The position numbers and the translations under genes are program-made. Positions 9,927-52,239 of a stretch of DNA of 52,259 nt are shown piece after piece. The stretch is from IMG/VR virus record IMGVR_UViG_3300030106_001108, positions 1-52,259 of that record. One strand, 5' to 3'. The DNA comes from a virus. The number at the start of each line of letters is the position of its first letter. Within the stretch, counting starts at the first letter, position 1. The notes under the pieces are model-generated. The model searched no databases and was not told where the DNA came from. It saw only the letters and a program-made list of their open reading frames with translations.

Positions 9927-10388
9927 ATGTCAAAAAACATAAATGCCTTTGGTTCAGGCGGAGAACCAATACCCGATAAAGTAGAACGATTTACTGAACC
10001 TGTAGAGCCTGCACCTAGTGTGACTCCAGAATCAGTACATGAAGATGGTGACTTACAATCTAAGTTACCTAAACCCACAGGTTATAGAATTTTAATACTA
10101 CCTTTTAGTCCTAAACAAAAAACTAAAGGTGGTATTTATTTACATGATTCAGTGTTAGAAAAAGAACGTATAGGTACTAACGTTGGATATGTAGTAGCAC
10201 TCGGTCCAGATGCATACCGTGACTCAGGTAAATTTCCTGAAGGAGCTTGGTGTAAACCTAAAGACTGGGTGATATTTGGTAGGTATGCAGGAGCCAGACT
10301 CAAAATAGAGGGTGGTGAACTGCGTTTATTAAACGATGATGAAGTTTTAGCTGTTATCTCAGATCCTGAAGATATACAATCAGTTTAA
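9927..10388 (+). CDS. GroES-like co-chaperonin
   Basis: A 153-residue protein whose residues from about 50 onward match the chaperonin-10 fold: GYRILILPF start strand, mobile loop KTKGGIYLHDSV (about 64-76), GYVVALGPDAY, then KPKDWVIFGRYAGARLKIEGG and LLNDDEVLAVI at the end. The first 50 residues are an acidic, Pro-rich extension not found in bacterial GroES. Like T4 gp31 and the co-chaperonins of other phages, it probably caps the host GroEL to fold the capsid protein. That fits its place just before the scaffold and capsid genes. Confidence 0.9.
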   Translation: MSKNINAFGSGGEPIPDKVERFTEPVEPAPSVTPESVHEDGDLQSKLPKPTGYRILILPFSPKQKTKGGIYLHDSVLEKERIGTNVGYVVALGPDAYRDSGKFPEGAWCKPKDWVIFGRYAGARLKIEGGELRLLNDDEVLAVISDPEDIQSV

Positions 10389-37270: not shown

Positions 37271-38527
37271 ATGAGTTTTTTAAAAAAATTAGGACAAATG
37301 TTAAGTAACAGACCTGATAGAGATGGTCCAAGTCACGGGGGCGGTAGTCCAGATATAATAAAACCGCCAGACAACAGAGTTATGGGTGACCAAGGTTTAG
37401 GTGGTTATCTTAACCCTAATCAATTAGAAATGTTTACCAACCCACCTGTACCAAATAACCAAGCTGGTCTTATGAATATGGCTAACTTATTACAGCAGCA
37501 ACAAGATACGTTTGGTGGTATGCTCACTTATCCCTCTCCCCCTAGTGATGATGGTACAGGCGGTGGTGGTACTGGTGGCGGTGGTGGCACTGGTGGTGGC
37601 ACTGGTGGTGGCACTGGTGGCGGTGGTGGCACTGGTGGCGGTGGAGGTACTGGTGGCGGTGGTGGCACTGGTGGCGGTGGAAGTAGAGATGAAAGAGATC
37701 GTCAGGAAATTATAGATGAAATTAGAAGGAGAAGAGAAGAGGAAGAAAGGAGAAGAAGAGAAGTTCCACCAGAAGATTTTAAATTTCCACCAGAGGGTAT
37801 CCCAGGCATACCTGTCGATATCCCAGGAGTACCGCCTATGACACCGCCTATGACACCGCCTATGACACCGCCTATGACACCGCCTATGACACCGCCTATG
37901 ACACCGCCTAGAAGAGATGAGCAAATATTTGTACCTCCTAAAGATATAGGTGACGTAGATATGCCGAGATTAAATATGCCTAGGTTTCAAGGTTTACGTG
38001 ATTTACCACAAAATTTTGATATACCTGTTCCTAGATTACCAACAGGTATGGAAACTTTAGTATCTCCAGATATTTTTATGAATAGAAGAAATACAGAAAG
38101 GCAAAACTTCGTGGCTGGTGGTGCACCAGCAAAAATACTCAACGCTATAGCAAGAGCAGGTAAAGGAGTAAAGAAAAAACTTGGCGAAGCAGACAGAAAA
38201 TTTGAAGAAGCAAGACAGAGAAGCGGAATTTTTCCTGGCACATCAGACCCAGTCAATAATCCATTTACATATTTAGATGCTAAGATAATGGGGGGTCTTA
38301 TGACACCGCCTGTTGTATTAGCAGGTATAAATGAAAAACGAAAAAGAGATGATTTAAGTTTGGCTAACTCTTATGGTCAAAAAGCTGCAGCAGAAGGCAA
38401 AACTTTAGAAGAGGCTATTAGACAATATACTGAAGATGCAAAAGTTCAAGGTCTCCCTACAGTTCAATATTATTTAATGGAAATAGAAAACGGTTACAAT
38501 CAAGCAATGCAAAATACTTCACGTTAA
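37271..38527 (+). CDS. Virion protein with Gly-rich and MTPP tandem repeats
   Basis: 418 residues. The N-terminal 90 residues are Pro/Gly/Asn-rich. A (GGGTGGG)n linker follows (about 97-137), then a highly charged helix (RDERDRQEIIDEIRRRREEE), six PPMT repeats (about 189-213), and a C-terminal helical domain with basic residues (GKGVKKKLGEADRKFEEARQ). The long flexible linkers suggest an extended scaffold-like or ejected protein. It is the last gene of the late operon; its final nine bases overlap the convergent helicase gene. Confidence 0.7.
   Translation: MSFLKKLGQMLSNRPDRDGPSHGGGSPDIIKPPDNRVMGDQGLGGYLNPNQLEMFTNPPVPNNQAGLMNMANLLQQQQDTFGGMLTYPSPPSDDGTGGGGTGGGGGTGGGTGGGTGGGGGTGGGGGTGGGGGTGGGGSRDERDRQEIIDEIRRRREEEERRRREVPPEDFKFPPEGIPGIPVDIPGVPPMTPPMTPPMTPPMTPPMTPPMTPPRRDEQIFVPPKDIGDVDMPRLNMPRFQGLRDLPQNFDIPVPRLPTGMETLVSPDIFMNRRNTERQNFVAGGAPAKILNAIARAGKGVKKKLGEADRKFEEARQRSGIFPGTSDPVNNPFTYLDAKIMGGLMTPPVVLAGINEKRKRDDLSLANSYGQKAAAEGKTLEEAIRQYTEDAKVQGLPTVQYYLMEIENGYNQAMQNTSR
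37555..37685 (+). repeat. Gly/Thr-coding GGTGG(C/T) microsatellite
   Basis: Repeats of GGTGGCGGTGG and ACTGGTGG encode the (GGGTGG)n linker. Such tracts expand and contract by slippage, in steps that keep the frame only if multiples of three are gained. Confidence 0.85.
37831..37909 (+). repeat. 12-bp tandem repeat ACCGCCTATGAC, six copies
   Basis: Perfect 12-base units encode PPMT. Copy number changes would keep the reading frame. Confidence 0.88.
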
Positions 38528-45529: not shown

Positions 45530-45863
45530 TAGTGCTAAGGCTAAAGGACGTAAGCTACAGCAGTGGTTTACTAATAAATTAGTAGAGATACTTAAACTTG
45601 ATGCAGAAGATTTAGAAAGCAGACCTATGGGTAGTCAAGGTGAAGATATAATTATGGGTAAACAGTCACGTGATAAGTTTCCTTATAGTATAGAGTGTAA
45701 AAATCAAGAAGCAGTTAACTTGTGGAAAGCGTATGCACAAGCAGAAGAAAACTGTAAAGGTTACGAGCCTTTAGTAGTGCTTAAACGTAATAGAAGTAAA
45801 CCACTAGTATTACTTGAAGCTGAATATTTTATTAAATTACATGAGGAGAAAAATGAGAGCTGA
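45519..45863 (+). CDS. PD-(D/E)XK-type nuclease (Holliday-junction or DNA-repair endonuclease)
   Basis: About 114 residues from TTG 45519 (LRPSSAKAKGRK). An in-frame ATG at 45459 would add 20 residues and overlap the previous gene by 71 bases. The core is GRKLQQWFTNKL, then SRPMGSQGEDIIM with the catalytic Asp, then FPYSIECKNQE with the E-x-K pair, then helix WKAYAQAEENC. This is the compact alpha-beta-beta-beta-alpha nuclease fold of phage resolvase-like enzymes. It likely processes branched DNA before packaging. Confidence 0.82.
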   Translation: MRPSSAKAKGRKLQQWFTNKLVEILKLDAEDLESRPMGSQGEDIIMGKQSRDKFPYSIECKNQEAVNLWKAYAQAEENCKGYEPLVVLKRNRSKPLVLLEAEYFIKLHEEKNES

Positions 45864-46701
45864 TTTAAATTTAAAAAGGGTAGATGATTTTAATAGGTTT
45901 ATGGTAGAAAGACATAATATATTTATACGTAAAGAGTTATCAAAACTACCATACCCATGGAGTCAAGACCCTATACTAACCGAGTTTAGTTTTTGTAACG
46001 TGTATCGTGAGTTAGACAAGGTAACTATATGGATAAGGGAAAACTGGAGAGAGCCACACGCTGACAACCCTAACCTACCTTTTGCTATGGCTATGGCTAG
46101 GCAAATAAATTGGCCAGACACTCTTGAGGAAATAGGTTTTCCTCATACGTTTGACCCTGAAAAAGTAAAAGCCATAATGCAGGCTAGAAAAGATAGGGGC
46201 GAAAAGGTATATACAGGGGCATACATGTTAACTGGTACGTTGGGTGGCACTAAGATAGAGCAAACCGTAGATAAAATACTGTTGCCTTTATATAAAAATT
46301 TTCCTAATGACTATAGTAGTTTAGAAAATTGTTGGAAAAGTTTTTTACCATACGCTGGGTTTAGTGATTTTATGTCTTACGAAGTAGTAACAGATTTACG
46401 ACACACTAAATGGTTAGCGGGAGCACCAGATATCATGACTTGGGCTAATCCTGGACCAGGAGCTATGAGAGGACTAAATAGAATATTTGGCAGGGAATTA
46501 AATAGTAAACAAAAGAAACCTTTATTTATACAAGAAATGAGAGATTTACTAGCCTTACTTAATAATGAGCCACTACCACTAGAGATGAGAGATATAGAAC
46601 ATTGTCTATGTGAGTTTGATAAATACGAGAGGGTACGTCTAGGTCAAGGTAGACCACGTGCTAAATATAAACCACGTGAATATACGGAGGATCTACTATA
46701 A
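45853..46701 (+). CDS. 5-hmdU-DNA-kinase-helical / thymine-pyrophosphorylase-like protein
   Basis: 282 residues from ATG 45853 (GAGGAGAAAA upstream); the in-frame ATG at 45814 lacks such a site. The blocks FMVERHNIFIRKELSK, PWSQDPILTEFSFCNVYREL, NLPFAMAMARQINWPDTL, GLGRP-like KYERVRLGQGRPRAKY and PYAGFSDFMSYEVVTDLR match a helical family linked to hypermodified thymine synthesis (5-hmdU DNA kinase helical domain or alpha-glutamyl/putrescinyl-thymine pyrophosphorylase). No P-loop is present, so any kinase domain would be a separate protein. It sits directly before a glycosyltransferase and a thymidylate-synthase homologue. Confidence 0.75.
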   Translation: MRADLNLKRVDDFNRFMVERHNIFIRKELSKLPYPWSQDPILTEFSFCNVYRELDKVTIWIRENWREPHADNPNLPFAMAMARQINWPDTLEEIGFPHTFDPEKVKAIMQARKDRGEKVYTGAYMLTGTLGGTKIEQTVDKILLPLYKNFPNDYSSLENCWKSFLPYAGFSDFMSYEVVTDLRHTKWLAGAPDIMTWANPGPGAMRGLNRIFGRELNSKQKKPLFIQEMRDLLALLNNEPLPLEMRDIEHCLCEFDKYERVRLGQGRPRAKYKPREYTEDLL

Positions 46702-47483
46702 TGATTATTTATATTCCAACTAGAGGCAGGGCAGACAACCAAGTTACCTTGTCATTTTTTCCAGAAGACATGCGTAAAGACGTAGTGTTAGTTATCGATG
46801 AAGATGAAAAACATTTATACGAAAATAAATACGATTGTAAATACATGGTTATACCTGAAGATATAAAAGGTATAGCTAAAAAACGTCAGTACATACATAA
46901 ACATACTGAGGATAAAAAGATAGTAATGTTAGATGATGATTTACGTTTTTATATACGTAAGTCTCCTACAGACTGGCATTTAAGATACTTAGAGCCTGAA
47001 GAGTATAAAGCTTTATTTGGTTTACTTGATAAGTGGCTAGACGATTATGCCCATGTAGGCGTAAGTGCTAGGGAGGGTAATAATAGAGTAGAACACCTAG
47101 CGGTAGAAAATACAAGATATATGAGGGTACTAGGCTATAACTTAGATATGTTTGATGGTATAGAGTTAGGCAGAGTTGATGTTATGGAAGACTTTGACAT
47201 AAATCTGCAATTATTGCGTCAAGGTAAGCCGAGTAAAATTAGCTACTATTACGCACAAGGTCAAAAAAGCTCTAACGCAGAGGGTGGCTGTAGTGAGTGG
47301 CGTACTATAGAAGTACATAACGCTGGGGCAGAAAAGCTACACGCCCTACACCCAGATTTTGTTAAGGTAGTAGAAAAAGAAACTAAAACTGCTTGGAATG
47401 GTTTGCCTCGTAAAGATGTAAATGTACAGTGGAAAAGAGCTTTTAAAAGTGGTCAGCAGGTAAAACAAGGAGGGCTGTGGTAA
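46701..47483 (+). CDS. TET-associated-type glycosyltransferase (DNA base glycosylation)
   Basis: 260 residues. The N-terminus IYIPTRGRADNQVTLSFF, the Asp-rich MLDDDLRFY (about 76-84, nucleotide-sugar/metal site), YAHVGVSAREGNNR, RVDVMEDFDINLQLLRQGK, YYYAQGQKSSNAEGGCSEWR and VEKETKTAWNG are the conserved blocks of the TAGT family, a GT-A-like fold. Members add sugars to hydroxymethylated bases in phage DNA. Overlaps of one base on each side join it to the two neighbouring modification genes. Confidence 0.85.
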   Translation: MIIYIPTRGRADNQVTLSFFPEDMRKDVVLVIDEDEKHLYENKYDCKYMVIPEDIKGIAKKRQYIHKHTEDKKIVMLDDDLRFYIRKSPTDWHLRYLEPEEYKALFGLLDKWLDDYAHVGVSAREGNNRVEHLAVENTRYMRVLGYNLDMFDGIELGRVDVMEDFDINLQLLRQGKPSKISYYYAQGQKSSNAEGGCSEWRTIEVHNAGAEKLHALHPDFVKVVEKETKTAWNGLPRKDVNVQWKRAFKSGQQVKQGGLW

Positions 47484-48490
47484 TGGATGTTATAAACTGT
47501 AGAAATGTAAATGATGGGTTTATAAAAGCTATGGATATGCTATCTTTTGATCAACAAGATATAAGAGAAAGTAGAGCAGGTCAAGTAATAGAGCATGATA
47601 CACCAGTAGCTACGGTATTTAGTAAACCTTATGAAAGAGTTTTATTTGAAGAAGTAAGAGACGCTAATCCTTTCTTTCACTTTATGGAGGGGCTATGGAT
47701 GTTAGCGGGTCGTAATGATTTAGGGTTTGTAAGAAAGTACAATAAACGTATGTCTGAGTATAGTGACGACGGTATAAGTTTACATGGTGCATACGGCTAT
47801 AGATGGATAAAACATTTTAACGTTAATCAAATAGATGTAATAATTAAAAGATTGAAAAAAGATCCTACCGATAGACGTTGTGTTTTACAAATGTGGGACG
47901 CTAAGTCTGACCTCAACCGTGCTGGAGTAGATGTGCCTTGTAATACGTGTATATATTTTAAGATACGTAATAACGAGTTATTGATGACTGTAAGTAATAG
48001 GTCTAACGATGTTATATGGGGCACATTCGGGGCTAATATAGTACATATGTCTATGTTACAGGAATATGTGGCTAGTGCCTTAGATGTTAGTATCGGGGCG
48101 TATACTCAGGTTAGTGATAGTTTCCATGCTTATACCAATGTGTTTGATGAGATGCATGCTAGGCTTGAAGAGTTAGAATTATTTGATTTTTATTTTATGA
48201 AACATATAGAAAACCCATATGAAAATAGAGCTATAAACTATTACCCAATGGTAAACCAGACTAGTATAGTAGACTGGAATAAAGATTTAGATAAATTTTT
48301 AGAACGTAAACCTTTTGAAGATATGGACTTTGAAGATATATTCTTCAGTCATGTAGCTGTACCATTACAAGATGCTTGGGCATTACATAAACTAGGCGAA
48401 ACTGATGACGCTATGTCAGAAGTACAAGAGTGTATAGCTACTGACTGGGCAACAGCAGGCTTTGACTGGCTTATGAGGAGAGCTAAATGA
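47483..48490 (+). CDS. Thymidylate synthase homologue, probable dUMP hydroxymethylase
   Basis: 335 residues from ATG 47483 (AAGGAGGG eight bases upstream); GTG 47477 is also in frame. The TS fold is shown by FFHFMEGLWMLAGRND, phosphate-binding DRRCVLQMWD (Arg131-Arg132), nucleophile Cys153 in VPCNTCIYF, and SNRSNDVIWGTFGANIVHM. The Asn of GANIV (185) aligns with the Asn that selects dUMP, so it should act on dUMP rather than dCMP. The Trp/Phe-rich WGTFGAN differs from the LGLPFN of true TS. In this cluster, 5-hydroxymethyl-dUMP synthesis is more likely than plain dTMP synthesis; that is inference. Confidence 0.8.
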   Translation: MDVINCRNVNDGFIKAMDMLSFDQQDIRESRAGQVIEHDTPVATVFSKPYERVLFEEVRDANPFFHFMEGLWMLAGRNDLGFVRKYNKRMSEYSDDGISLHGAYGYRWIKHFNVNQIDVIIKRLKKDPTDRRCVLQMWDAKSDLNRAGVDVPCNTCIYFKIRNNELLMTVSNRSNDVIWGTFGANIVHMSMLQEYVASALDVSIGAYTQVSDSFHAYTNVFDEMHARLEELELFDFYFMKHIENPYENRAINYYPMVNQTSIVDWNKDLDKFLERKPFEDMDFEDIFFSHVAVPLQDAWALHKLGETDDAMSEVQECIATDWATAGFDWLMRRAK

Positions 48491-49173
48491 GTGATAAAAT
48501 TTATCAATGGTCGTATAGTAGACTTAGCACGTTTGAGAGCTGTCCTAAAAAAGCATACTATGCTTATGTTAAACGTATTAAAGAGCCTGGAAATAAATAC
48601 ATGGAACGTGGTAAAACTATGCACAGCATGTGTGAGGATTATATAAGGGGCAGATACGAAGACATACCTAAAGAGTTAGCTGATTTTGAAGAAGCTTTTG
48701 ATAATTTAAAAGAGCTACATTTAAAAGGTTATGTAACTTGTGAGGGTGATTGGGCTTTTGATAAAGACTGGAAACCTGCTCCTTGGTTTGGTGACACAAC
48801 TTGGGGCAGAGCTAAAGTAGATGCTTTTGTATACATAGACGGTCAACCTAACGCTAGAGTTATAGATTTTAAAACAGGTAGGTATGACGGTAATCAAGAA
48901 ACACACAGAGAGCAGTGTGAGTTATATGGAGCCGTTGTGTTAGAACGTATGCCAGAAGTAGAAACTATAACTACAGAGCTGTGGTATTTAGACCATGGTA
49001 AAATAGATAGATATGAATATAGTGAAGATAACATTACCTATAAAAGAGAAAAGCTTAATAATAGAGCCGTAGCTATGACAGAAGCTACAGAGTTTCCAGC
49101 TAAACCGAGTACATTCGGTTGTAAGTGGTGTTATTTTGGTAAGGAGAAAATTTGTGAAGACAGGTATGAATGA
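48487..49173 (+). CDS. RecB/Cas4-like PD-(D/E)XK nuclease with Fe-S-type cysteines
   Basis: 228 residues. It begins WSYSRLSTFESCPKKAYYAY, the usual RecB-family start. The catalytic core includes RGKTMHSMCEDYIRG (His), WGRAKVDAFVY (Asp), RVIDFKTGRYDG (D-x-K) and EQCELYGAVV. One Cys near the N-terminus (Cys19) and three at the end (CKWCYFGKEKIC) match the four-Cys iron-sulphur arrangement of AddB/Cas4 enzymes. It is probably a 5' or 3' exonuclease acting in phage recombination or host DNA breakdown. Confidence 0.85.
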   Translation: MSDKIYQWSYSRLSTFESCPKKAYYAYVKRIKEPGNKYMERGKTMHSMCEDYIRGRYEDIPKELADFEEAFDNLKELHLKGYVTCEGDWAFDKDWKPAPWFGDTTWGRAKVDAFVYIDGQPNARVIDFKTGRYDGNQETHREQCELYGAVVLERMPEVETITTELWYLDHGKIDRYEYSEDNITYKREKLNNRAVAMTEATEFPAKPSTFGCKWCYFGKEKICEDRYE

Positions 49174-49657
49174 TTTATTTAATATGATACGTGGTGGGGC
49201 TATAAAACGCTACCACACCTTAGAGATTATAGGTGAGCAGTCAGTCGCTTCTCACTCTTGGGGCGTAGCTATTATCCTACAGTTTTTAGAACCTAACGTA
49301 AGTAAACAAGCTATATTAAGAGCCTTAACTCATGACGTAGCAGAACTTTTTACTGGTGACGTGCCTGCTCCTGTAAAATGGGATAACCCTGATTTAGTAG
49401 AAGTATTAAAAAGGATAGAGGATAAGTATGAGAGTGACATAGGTATAGAGTATGAACTTACCCCACAAGAAATAGCGTTAGGTAAACAGGCTGACATGTT
49501 TGAGTTATTGGTTTTTTGTGTACGTCAAAGGCGTTTAGGCAATACTAATATGAATGAAGTTTTTAGCAACGGTGTTGAGTATTTAGCATCAATTAATTTA
49601 AATAGTAGAGGTAAAGAGTTGCTAGGTTATCTCACTAAAATTTATGGAGGAATATAA
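49154..49657 (+). CDS. HD-domain nucleotidase (YfbR-like)
   Basis: 167 residues from GTG 49154, chosen because AAGGAGAAAATTT precedes it; an ATG at 49136 is also in frame. Metal-binding residues are His in RYHTLEIIGEQSVASHSWG, the HD pair in LRALTHDVAELFTGDVPAPVKW and a distal Asp in LGKQADMFELL. The PAPVKW motif is typical of 5'-deoxynucleotidases. It would trim deoxynucleoside monophosphates, perhaps to shape the dNMP pool for modified-base synthesis. It overlaps the nuclease gene by 20 bases. Confidence 0.85.
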   Translation: MKTGMNDLFNMIRGGAIKRYHTLEIIGEQSVASHSWGVAIILQFLEPNVSKQAILRALTHDVAELFTGDVPAPVKWDNPDLVEVLKRIEDKYESDIGIEYELTPQEIALGKQADMFELLVFCVRQRRLGNTNMNEVFSNGVEYLASINLNSRGKELLGYLTKIYGGI

Positions 49658-49956
49658 TGGAAGGAAGTGACTTTAACATTATAAGAAAACTAGCTAACTT
49701 AGACGTTAGTAAACTAGAACAAGCTGAACGTAGCTACGGCGACAGTTGGCGTAAACGTGGTGGCATAGGTGCTTTTATGATGCTAGCACGTAAGTGGGAT
49801 AGGATAGAGAATCAAGTAACTAAAGACGGTTATGACATATTTGAGTCTATCTATAATGACCCTAGTGATACAGGTATATTAGATGATATACGTGATTTAC
49901 GTAGATATTTACTATTAGTTGAGGGGTTTATGAGTAACGGTGAAAACTTTGACTAG
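49657..49956 (+). CDS. Nucleotide-modification-associated (Nmad1/DUF1599-like) protein
   Basis: 99 residues, helical. YGDSWRKRGGIGAFMMLARKWDRIE and IYNDPSDTGILDDIRDLRRYLLLVE carry the WRKRGGxGAFMMLARKxDR and DDIxDLRRYLLL blocks of DUF1599/Nmad1. Such proteins are found near phage base-modification enzymes, without a proven activity. It overlaps the HD gene by one base and the next gene by 17. Confidence 0.78.
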   Translation: MEGSDFNIIRKLANLDVSKLEQAERSYGDSWRKRGGIGAFMMLARKWDRIENQVTKDGYDIFESIYNDPSDTGILDDIRDLRRYLLLVEGFMSNGENFD

Positions 49957-50368
49957 AGGCATAACGTTTAGTGCTTTTGATTTATTTCATGCTGGTCATG
50001 TGGCTATGTTATCTGAGGCTAAAGGTCAGTGTGATTATTTAGTTGCTTGTATCCACGCTGACCCCAGTAAAGAAAACCCAGATAAAAATAAACCTGTACA
50101 AAGTTTATTAGAACGTCAAATACAAGTAAACGGCTGTCGTTATGTAGACGAAACTATAGTTTACGAAAGCGAAGAAGACTTACGTAATATATTAAGAACT
50201 ATACCTTGGGACGTTAGAATTATAGGTGAAGAATATATGAATAAACATTTTACAGGTAAAGAGGAATTTAATTTACCTAGTAAAAAAGTTTACTACAATT
50301 ACAGACAACATACATTCAGTAGTAGCGAGTTAAGAAGTAGAATACAATGCAAGACACAAGACAAATAA
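49940..50368 (+). CDS. Cytidylyltransferase-like nucleotidyltransferase
   Basis: 142 residues from a GTG start. FDLFHAGHVAML (about 13-24) holds the HxGH nucleotide-binding motif, and FSSSELRSRI (about 126-135) the C-terminal (I/S)SSxxRxxI motif. YDLV-type strands lie between them. It should transfer CMP or AMP to a phosphorylated small molecule, as in glycerol-3-phosphate cytidylyltransferases. In this context it may make an activated donor for the glycosyltransferase, which is inference. It overlaps both neighbours (17 and 22 bases). Confidence 0.82.
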   Translation: MKTLTRGITFSAFDLFHAGHVAMLSEAKGQCDYLVACIHADPSKENPDKNKPVQSLLERQIQVNGCRYVDETIVYESEEDLRNILRTIPWDVRIIGEEYMNKHFTGKEEFNLPSKKVYYNYRQHTFSSSELRSRIQCKTQDK

Positions 50369-52239
50369 GTTTGTTTACGCCCGAGGTGGACTGGACTCCA
50401 CCCAGTAGTTTACCAGAGTTGAGTGGATACAACGAAGTAGCTATTGATCTAGAGACATACGATCCATTACTAATGTCTCATGGTCCATCTTGGGCATTCC
50501 CAGACGCTGGGTATATAACTGGTGTAGCTATAGCCACTAAAGATTTTAGTTTGTATTTTCCTATACAACATAAAGGCGGTGGTAATTTAGATAAAGAATT
50601 AGTTTTGAGGTGGTTAGGTAAACAAATGTTACACAATAACGATAAGATATTTCATAATTCTTTATATGATATGGGTTGGCTAAAACGCTACGGTATAACT
50701 GTAAACGGCAAAATACAAGACACAATGTTTGCTGCTCCTTTAATAGATGAAAACCAATATAGTTACTCACTAAATAGTCTGGGAGAAAAATATTGTGGGG
50801 AGAAAAAAGACGAAACTTTACTTTACAATGCAGCTCGTGCTTATGGTGTTGATGCTAAAAGCGAGATGTATCTACTACCTGCTAAATATGTTGGTCCCTA
50901 CGGTGAGCAAGATGCAGCATTAACTTTAAAATTATGGGGCGTGTTTAAAAAATTAATAGAGTTAGAAAACGTAGGAAAAATATACGAGCTTGAAACTGGC
51001 TTAATACCTATATTACTTGACATGAGGTATAAAGGAGTACCAGTTGATTTAGGCGTAGCTGAGCAGGTAAGTAAAAGGTTACAAAAAGAGGAAAACGATA
51101 TACTAAATAATATACATAAAGAGTTCGGTATGAAACCAGAACTCTGGGCAGCACAGTCAGTAGCTACGGTATTTGATAGAGCTGGTCTAAGTTACCCACG
51201 AACACCTAAAACTAACGCCCCATCATTTGCTGGAGACTGGCTAGAAACACACGACCATAAGTTAGCTAATAACATAGCACGAGCACGTAAGTTAAATAAA
51301 GCTAGGACTACATTCATAGATAAAATGATATTAGAGCATAACGTAAACGGTAGAATACATGGAGAGTTACACCCTTTACGTAGTGACCGTGGAGGCACAG
51401 TGACAGGTAGGTTTAGTAGTAGCAACCCTAATTTACAACAAGTACCAGCACGTAATGAAGATATTGGTCCTCTTATACGTAGTATTTTTGTACCTGAAAA
51501 AGATCATTACTGGGGCGTGTTTGATTATTCTCAACAAGAACCTAGACTTACAGTTCACTATGCTTCGGCTACCGAACAAGAGGGTGCAAGCGAGGCAGTA
51601 GATGCTTACCGTAATCAAGACGCTGATTTTCATCAAGTAGTAGCAGATATGGCTAACATAAGTCGTAAAGAAGCTAAGATTATTAATTTAGGATTAAGCT
51701 ACGGTATGGGTAAAGAAAAATTAGTAAAACAATTAGATTTATCAATGCAGGAAGCAGAGGTTTTATTTGACACATACCATAAAAGAGTTCCTTTTATAAA
51801 AGGGCTACGTGATCAATGTGCTAGGCTCGGTGCTAATCGTGGATACATTACAACTATAGCTGGTCGTAAATGCAGGTTTAATTTATACGAGCCTAAAAAT
51901 GAAAGAAAGACACCGTACCCTTATGAAAAAGCAATAACAGAATATGGTAGTCAAGTTAAAAGGGCATACACTTACAAAGCTATGAATAGACTTATACAAG
52001 GCTCAGCAGCAGACATGACTAAACAAGCCATGCTTGAGCTGTATAAAGAGGGCATACTGCCCCACACACAAGTTCACGATGAGTTAGATATATCTGTAAC
52101 TGACTCAAAACAATGTGAAGTCATTATGAAAATAATGTCTGAATGCACACCTTTATGTGTTCCCAATAAAGTTGATGCAGAGATAGGTAGAAGTTGGGGA
52201 GAAGCAACCGTACACTACAAGGAGTTTTTTAATGAGTAA
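50347..52239 (+). CDS. Family A DNA polymerase with 3'-5' exonuclease
   Basis: 630 residues. Proofreading domain: AIDLETYD (Asp34, Glu36), NSLYDMGW (Asp108), YGEQDAALT (Asp189). Polymerase: TGRFSSSNPNLQQVP, motif A VFDYSQQEPR (Asp393, Glu398), motif B RKEAKIINLGLSYGMG (Arg440, Lys444, Leu448, Tyr452) and motif C QVHDELD. Leu448 sits at the position of E. coli Pol I Phe762. No DnaJ-like insertion is seen, unlike some marine podoviruses. It replicates the phage genome with the upstream primase and helicase. Confidence 0.96.
   Translation: MQDTRQISLFTPEVDWTPPSSLPELSGYNEVAIDLETYDPLLMSHGPSWAFPDAGYITGVAIATKDFSLYFPIQHKGGGNLDKELVLRWLGKQMLHNNDKIFHNSLYDMGWLKRYGITVNGKIQDTMFAAPLIDENQYSYSLNSLGEKYCGEKKDETLLYNAARAYGVDAKSEMYLLPAKYVGPYGEQDAALTLKLWGVFKKLIELENVGKIYELETGLIPILLDMRYKGVPVDLGVAEQVSKRLQKEENDILNNIHKEFGMKPELWAAQSVATVFDRAGLSYPRTPKTNAPSFAGDWLETHDHKLANNIARARKLNKARTTFIDKMILEHNVNGRIHGELHPLRSDRGGTVTGRFSSSNPNLQQVPARNEDIGPLIRSIFVPEKDHYWGVFDYSQQEPRLTVHYASATEQEGASEAVDAYRNQDADFHQVVADMANISRKEAKIINLGLSYGMGKEKLVKQLDLSMQEAEVLFDTYHKRVPFIKGLRDQCARLGANRGYITTIAGRKCRFNLYEPKNERKTPYPYEKAITEYGSQVKRAYTYKAMNRLIQGSAADMTKQAMLELYKEGILPHTQVHDELDISVTDSKQCEVIMKIMSECTPLCVPNKVDAEIGRSWGEATVHYKEFFNE

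Follow-up and report, generated by a model that had tools for sequence, protein, structure and literature searches.

Thymidine hypermodifications are known from Pseudomonas phage M6 (5-NedU) and from PaMx11 (N-glycyl-T/5-NmdU), and in M6-type phages a kinase phosphorylates 5-hydroxymethyluracil (5hmU), after which an amino acid:DNA transferase (ADDT) swaps the phosphate for an amino acid. In kinetoplastid base J (beta-D-glucosyl-5hmU), T is oxidized within DNA by JBP dioxygenases and an unrelated glycosyltransferase then acts. The TAGT of the T-even phages T2/T6 (beta-glucosyl-HMC-alpha-glucosyltransferase) adds a second glucose to glucosylated 5-hydroxymethylcytosine (5hmC), and it needs a first glucosyltransferase to do so. 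Here we report a computational analysis of IMGVR_UViG_3300030106_001108, a linear IMG/VR virus contig of 52,259 bp (this whole stretch is called the window below), in which an HMUDK_hel protein, a TAGT-family glycosyltransferase and a thymidylate synthase (TS) homologue are encoded side by side. The source appears to be a marine phage of a type infecting abundant ocean bacteria, and its capsid gene DNA is 75% identical to that of Pelagibacter phage HTVC023P over 380 bp. We read the cluster, with a probability of about 0.63, as a glycosyltransferase version of the M6/PaMx11-type 5-hydroxymethyldeoxyuridine (5hmdU) hypermodification operon, which would place glycosyl-5hmU in the DNA, apparently as a disguise, with HMUDK_hel as the presenting partner. 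The three genes are as follows.

45853..46701, + strand: HMUDK_hel (aGPT-Pplase1) protein, 282 aa from ATG, an alternative TTG start at 45814 also being possible (PF18723, 164 bits versus a curated cut-off of 25, E=4.5e-48, residues 9-263)
46701..47483, + strand: TAGT-family glycosyltransferase, 260 aa (PF20691, 92 bits versus a cut-off of 27.5, E=5.8e-26; phrog_842, 208 bits)
47477..48490, + strand: thymidylate-synthase homologue, predicted dUMP 5-hydroxymethylase, 337 aa (PF00303, Thymidylat_synt, 76 bits, E=2.7e-21; phrog_5131, 375 bits)

The three open reading frames (ORFs) are contiguous, with mutual overlaps of 1-7 bp. An earlier note on this DNA had described three adjoining genes of these kinds, and the ORFs, the Pfam/PHROG scores and synteny confirm it; its label "thymine-pyrophosphorylase-like" for the first product is an old family name (aGPT-Pplase1) of HMUDK_hel and nothing more. 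Chance is excluded because of the profile scores and the conserved synteny across dozens of independent contigs. The TS homologue is 43-46% identical to enzymes of the M6/PaMx11 group, some of them annotated as deoxyuridylate hydroxymethyltransferase, and it keeps the catalytic Cys (PCN) and the Asn177 equivalent (GAN). The note had also stated that the dUMP-type Asn is retained, and in the alignment Asn indeed stands at the E. coli ThyA N177 position, as in M6 and PaMx11; CMP hydroxymethylase 5b6d has Asp there, and this marker of dCMP hydroxymethylases (T4 gp42 / CMP hydroxymethylase type) is not found in the window TS. From homology and active-site residues the enzyme is predicted to convert dUMP to 5-hydroxymethyl-dUMP (5hmdUMP). 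In the TAGT, Asp78-Asp79 is invariant and Asp80 near-invariant (a DxD-like metal/nucleotide-sugar motif), Asp164 is invariant, and the AlphaFold2 (AF2) model (pLDDT 91.4) matches GT-A/GT2-like UDP-sugar transferases at Z 13-14. Its predicted acceptor, judged from gene context, is a hydroxymethylated pyrimidine in DNA.

The gene order in M6 is ADDT (gp51, PF18724), PLP enzyme (gp52), radical SAM (gp53), P-loop kinase (gp54, PF18748), HMUDK_hel (gp55), Nmad5 (gp56), TS (gp58), HD (gp59) and polA (gp62), and in PaMx11 it is ADDT, FAD enzyme, acetyltransferase, kinase, HMUDK_hel, TS, HD and polA, the PaMx11 kinase and ADDT being assigned by profile. Common to the window and these two operons, in the same order, are HMUDK_hel, a dUMP-type TS homologue, an HD nucleotidase and polA; the HD homologue (phrog_6047) follows TS in M6 (gp059) as it does in the window. 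The window differs in having neither a PF18748 kinase nor a PF18724 transferase, and its cluster is devoid of PLP, radical-SAM or FAD genes, and between HMUDK_hel and TS it has a TAGT where M6 carries Nmad5. A direct swap of TAGT for the kinase at the identical locus was considered and rejected, since M6 has Nmad5 (gp056) at that place and its kinase (gp054) lies upstream of HMUDK_hel. In GenBank, M6 gp54 (PF18748; L003:5686-6249, L numbers being our locus handles) and PaMx11 gp49 (the same kinase profile; L282:7432-8001) are both called "terminase small subunit", an apparent misannotation.

Next to HMUDK_hel, different transferases alternate. In a first survey of 80 viral contigs, found with HMUDK_hel alone, we observed TAGT or kinase, never both, and ADDT, over the 82 loci of that survey, only beside the kinase; a TAGT match of 26 bits in L080 was initially taken as noise. 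The survey was widened by M6-led, alignment-led, bacterial-genome and isolate loci to 96 non-redundant HMUDK_hel ORFs: 36 have TAGT only, 32 kinase only, one has both, and 27 have neither, some of these last being contig-edge fragments. The sole locus with both partner types (L080:9268-11500) holds kinase, ADDT, HMUDK_hel and a distant TAGT-like ORF (74 bits). Over the 96 loci the exclusion of TAGT and kinase gives a Fisher p of 3.7e-8, uncorrected for kinship. A GT-B glycosyltransferase lies near HMUDK_hel in 7 of the 27 loci without TAGT or kinase, one family occurring in L238, L072, L250, L268 and L270 and a second in L248 and L241. In L238, which is closely related to the window (62% identity), the order is UvrD, HMUDK_hel, small ORF, FkbM methyltransferase, GT-B, small ORF and TS; the GT-B thus stands between HMUDK_hel and TS, and an exchange has taken place at the very site of the TAGT. 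The maximum-likelihood tree of 93 HMUDK_hel domains requires 11 switches of partner type (kinase, TAGT or GT-B), or 7 when kinase is set against any glycosyltransferase, and several of them fall across well-supported nodes (L250 with GT-B beside L253 with TAGT; L072 with GT-B beside L069 with kinase; L238 inside the TAGT clade of the window). Searching from the other side, with the window TAGT as query, HMUDK_hel was found in 58 of 64 viral loci, and the other six end at most 0.7 kb upstream of TAGT. The pair is present in unrelated actinophages in culture as well: Brevibacterium phage LuckyBarnes has a contiguous TS-TAGT-TAGT-HMUDK_hel array with a TS of the Asn type, and HMUDK_hel with TAGT also occurs in Microbacterium phages Hasitha and Morrigan.

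Some surveyed loci carry further genes of interest. The FkbM methyltransferase and GT-B between HMUDK_hel and TS in L238 (L238:9128-11172) suggest an O-methylated sugar on 5hmU. At another locus (L073:1123-4031) HMUDK_hel precedes a P-loop ORF of 127 aa, an ORF of 206 aa that resembles sulfotransferases (PF13469 at 24 bits, under the cut-off) and then TS, and the sulfotransferase-like product may be one more type of HMUDK_hel partner. HMUDK_hel adjoins TS in Hyphomicrobium/Hyphomicrobiaceae contigs of 0.5-2.7 Mb (L257, L258, L273), prophage or cellular, and in L258 the locus adjoins recA. A 5-hmdU kinase and an aGPT-Pplase are listed among defence domains by DefensePredictor (PMC13092281).

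The HMUDK_hel protein of the window is 41% identical to the M6 gp055 type, and for both HMUDK_hel and TS the nearest isolates are in Mesyanzhinovviridae (Pseudomonas phage M6/YuA, Stenotrophomonas phage Sonora). The top structural match of its AF2 model (pLDDT 93.9) by VIA-align is 8z2n, the PaMx11 5-PmdU glycinyltransferase (Z 11.7, 3.7 A, 216 residues), followed by helix-hairpin-helix (HhH) DNA glycosylases at Z 9-10.5 (MjOgg Z 10.5, EndoIII Z 9.1), a Z near 12 being moderate evidence where proteins are helical. Foldseek alone gave weak matches, and a PDB sequence search returned no match for either HMUDK_hel or TAGT. An HhH DNA-glycosylase fold is predicted for HMUDK_hel on this moderate evidence. 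Most of its invariant residues (for example Arg20, Phe47, Arg52, Asp55, Phe173, Asp181, Gly-Pro-Gly 201-203, Cys253-Glu254 and Lys257) are kept alike with kinase, TAGT and GT-B partners, and a search for partner-specific residues gave a single weak column, Trp versus Ile near domain residue 63. No HMUDK_hel-TAGT fusion was found among the surveyed loci, the sole fusion seen being kinase-HMUDK_hel in Bacillus phage SBSphiC (L279). The fold and the indifference to partner type suggest that HMUDK_hel is most likely the DNA-binding, base-presenting component.

The best-surviving alternative, which we consider unlikely, is that HMUDK_hel is itself an ADDT-like catalyst that further alters the sugar on 5hmU or displaces it, the end product then lying beyond glycosyl-5hmU. 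The glycinyltransferase as best structural match and invariant residues such as Cys253-Glu254, Asp256 and Lys257 are what one might expect of such an enzyme, but the ADDT signature is missing: PF18724 has no match in the window, and a profile-profile comparison of HMUDK_hel with ADDT covers 45 columns at a probability of 74%. Kinase-type phages, moreover, use a separate ADDT for amino acid transfer and keep HMUDK_hel too, usually beside the kinase, and a common role independent of the partner better explains why HMUDK_hel is retained beside kinase, GT-A and GT-B enzymes alike.

We give still less credence to the proposal that the TAGT has 5hmC as its acceptor or works as a T2/T6-like second-sugar enzyme, with a TS that is either an ordinary thymidylate synthase or a dCMP hydroxymethylase. 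The T2/T6 enzyme, which shares PF20691 and the GT-A fold with the window TAGT, does put a second glucose on glucosyl-hmC (PMC13216743), and some TS homologues of Microbacterium phages carry Asp (see below). Unlike the T-even enzyme, however, the window TAGT is the only glycosyltransferase detected, with no other of PF00534 or PF00535 type in the window, and it adjoins a dUMP-type TS with the Asn of M6 and PaMx11. HMUDK_hel, present in M6 and PaMx11, is lacking in four phages that have a TAGT but belong to other types, the T-even CC31 and SG1 among them.

The earlier note had seen no P-loop kinase or TET enzyme in the window, and this holds: PF18748 (hmdU kinase) and PF12851 (TET/JBP dioxygenase) have no match there, and the only Walker A among the window ORFs is that of the UvrD helicase. 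There was likewise no PF18748 match in ten large TAGT-type contigs, and both kinase-type control genomes were matched. The search for a P-loop 5-hmdU kinase was carried beyond the window to five relatives that share this cluster (59.7-62.8 kb), and neither PF18748, a profile built here nor a Walker A scan found one; the sole convincing P-loop protein of each relative is the UvrD helicase, and an M6-type control genome showed its kinase in the own-profile and Walker A scans. ADDT (PF18724) is absent from the window and from these five near-complete relatives. The P-loop scan of LuckyBarnes gave only a large ATPase (804 aa), and in Hasitha it gave a protein of 197 aa whose annotation is thymidylate kinase. 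It is therefore the glycosylation branch of the earlier proposal that is favored: a 5hmdU-based modification cluster with a glycosyltransferase is supported, whereas further alkylation and a pathway split over the genome are disfavored by the absence of kinase and ADDT from near-complete relatives. Across phages HMUDK_hel alternates with glycosyltransferases, and the presence of this helical protein does not point to a hidden kinase. That the M6 amino-acid pathway is followed all the same, with kinase and ADDT in an unsequenced part of the genome or supplied by the host, is very improbable; the window is a linear record of 52 kb and relatives reach 60-63 kb, but the five relatives of that size lack both genes. 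Weakest of all is the idea that the TAGT modifies a non-DNA target (envelope glycan, tail protein) and sits in the cluster incidentally, since, although GT-A/GT2-like folds serve many acceptors, searches from either side find TAGT almost universally linked to HMUDK_hel and TS, the cluster recurs in unrelated actinophages, and a GT-B is exchanged at the same site.

Some observations weigh against reading the cluster as a glycosyltransferase version of the M6/PaMx11 operon. After correction for kinship the independent pairs stand at 0 versus 4, in the expected direction but too few to be significant (p = 0.125). Phage MW202897 (L002:9992-12290) has a TAGT 45% identical to that of the window, an Asn-type TS and an HD gene in a genome without HMUDK_hel, so HMUDK_hel is dispensable for some such TAGTs. 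In the Microbacterium phages the TS homologues (L091:4997-5809, L277:5589-6494) have Asp at the Asn177 column despite the presence of HMUDK_hel and TAGT, and the pair may therefore act on hmC there and not be confined to hmU. Absence of a kinase by PF18748 alone is no proof, for this profile also misses PhiW-14, whose pathway should presumably include a kinase; for this reason the relatives were scanned with our own profile and Walker A motifs. Finally, a 5-HMUDK preparation, partner not stated, phosphorylates 5hmU DNA in vitro (PMC6457204).

If the glycosyltransferase version of the operon is what the window encodes, the pathway would begin with conversion of dUMP to 5hmdUMP by the TS homologue, as homology and active-site residues indicate. 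The product would be brought to the triphosphate level and the phage polymerase would then build it into DNA, 5hmU replacing T wholly or partly, and the HD nucleotidase would probably shape the dNMP pool. After replication HMUDK_hel may bind the DNA and present the 5hmU base, and TAGT would then move a sugar from a nucleotide-sugar donor onto the 5-hydroxymethyl oxygen, a step that would stand where M6-type phages phosphorylate the base and then swap in an amino acid. The product predicted from family membership and gene context, glycosyl-5hmU, is of the same class as base J, glycosylated 5hmU in DNA, but its hmU would be made at the mononucleotide level and no TET/JBP enzyme is present in the window. 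Our interpretation is of a constant core, the 5hmdUMP-making TS homologue and HMUDK_hel, combined with an exchangeable transferase. More tentatively, HMUDK_hel could be a general plug-in adaptor, a repurposed protein of the HhH DNA-glycosylase fold that attaches to DNA and presents hydroxymethylated bases to any acquired transferase; its partners would then comprise the P-loop kinase, GT-A (TAGT), at least two GT-B families and perhaps a sulfotransferase.

Downstream of the three genes the conserved block continues with the following features.

48487..49173, + strand: PD-(D/E)XK / Cas4-like exonuclease, a conserved neighbor (PF12705, 77 bits)
49136..49657, + strand: HD-domain YfbR-like 5'-deoxynucleotidase, a probable nucleotide-pool enzyme (PF12917, 62 bits; phrog_6047)
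49940..50368, + strand: HldE-C/CTP_transf-like nucleotidyltransferase (PF01467, 50 bits; TIGR02199, 57 bits, below the TIGR02199 cut-off)
50347..52239, + strand: family A DNA polymerase, which closes the conserved block here and in M6 (PF00476, 208 bits)

A part in modification is not indicated for the exonuclease. The HldE-like nucleotidyltransferase, which in the first survey was seen only in TAGT-type loci and is sometimes placed elsewhere, could, speculatively, supply an activated sugar or alditol. Other neighbors of the cluster are a pyrimidine-dimer-glycosylase-like protein and a PD-(D/E)XK/RusA-like nuclease. Elsewhere in the window a GroES-like co-chaperonin gene (9927-10388, phrog_3188) lies close to the capsid genes, an arrangement shared with HTVC023P, and an ORF at 37271-38527 contains long tandem amino-acid repeats of TGGGG and TPPM.

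Co-location of TS, aG/PT-PPlase1, a nucleotidase and a glucosyltransferase in pelagiphages, as a set that potentially broadens function, has been reported (PMC9599517, 2022); the available part of that paper, on the auxiliary metabolic gene cluster of HTVC023P-type pelagiphages, does not describe kinase absence, partner exchange, fold or mechanism. In HTVC023P itself no HMUDK_hel was found. In the literature surveyed, which does not extend to the principal biochemical studies of this pathway, we found the exchange of kinase and glycosyltransferase, the absence of the kinase and the role of HMUDK_hel undescribed. Many "solitary" TAGTs have been regarded as potentially novel transferases of undefined function (PMC13216743, 2026), and the present analysis gives part of them a concrete, testable role. 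It predicts glycosylated 5hmU, similar to base J, in relatives of the highly abundant pelagiphages and in actinophage isolates, and it makes the Pfam "5-hmdU DNA kinase, helical domain" a common element, paired here with kinases and there with glycosyltransferases, rather than a kinase marker. If HMUDK_hel presents bases to exchangeable transferases, this would explain the diversity of thymine hypermodifications and would offer a useful means of attaching groups to 5hmU DNA; should the adaptor proposal be true, phages would diversify their DNA decorations by exchanging partners around a constant core that makes and presents hmU.

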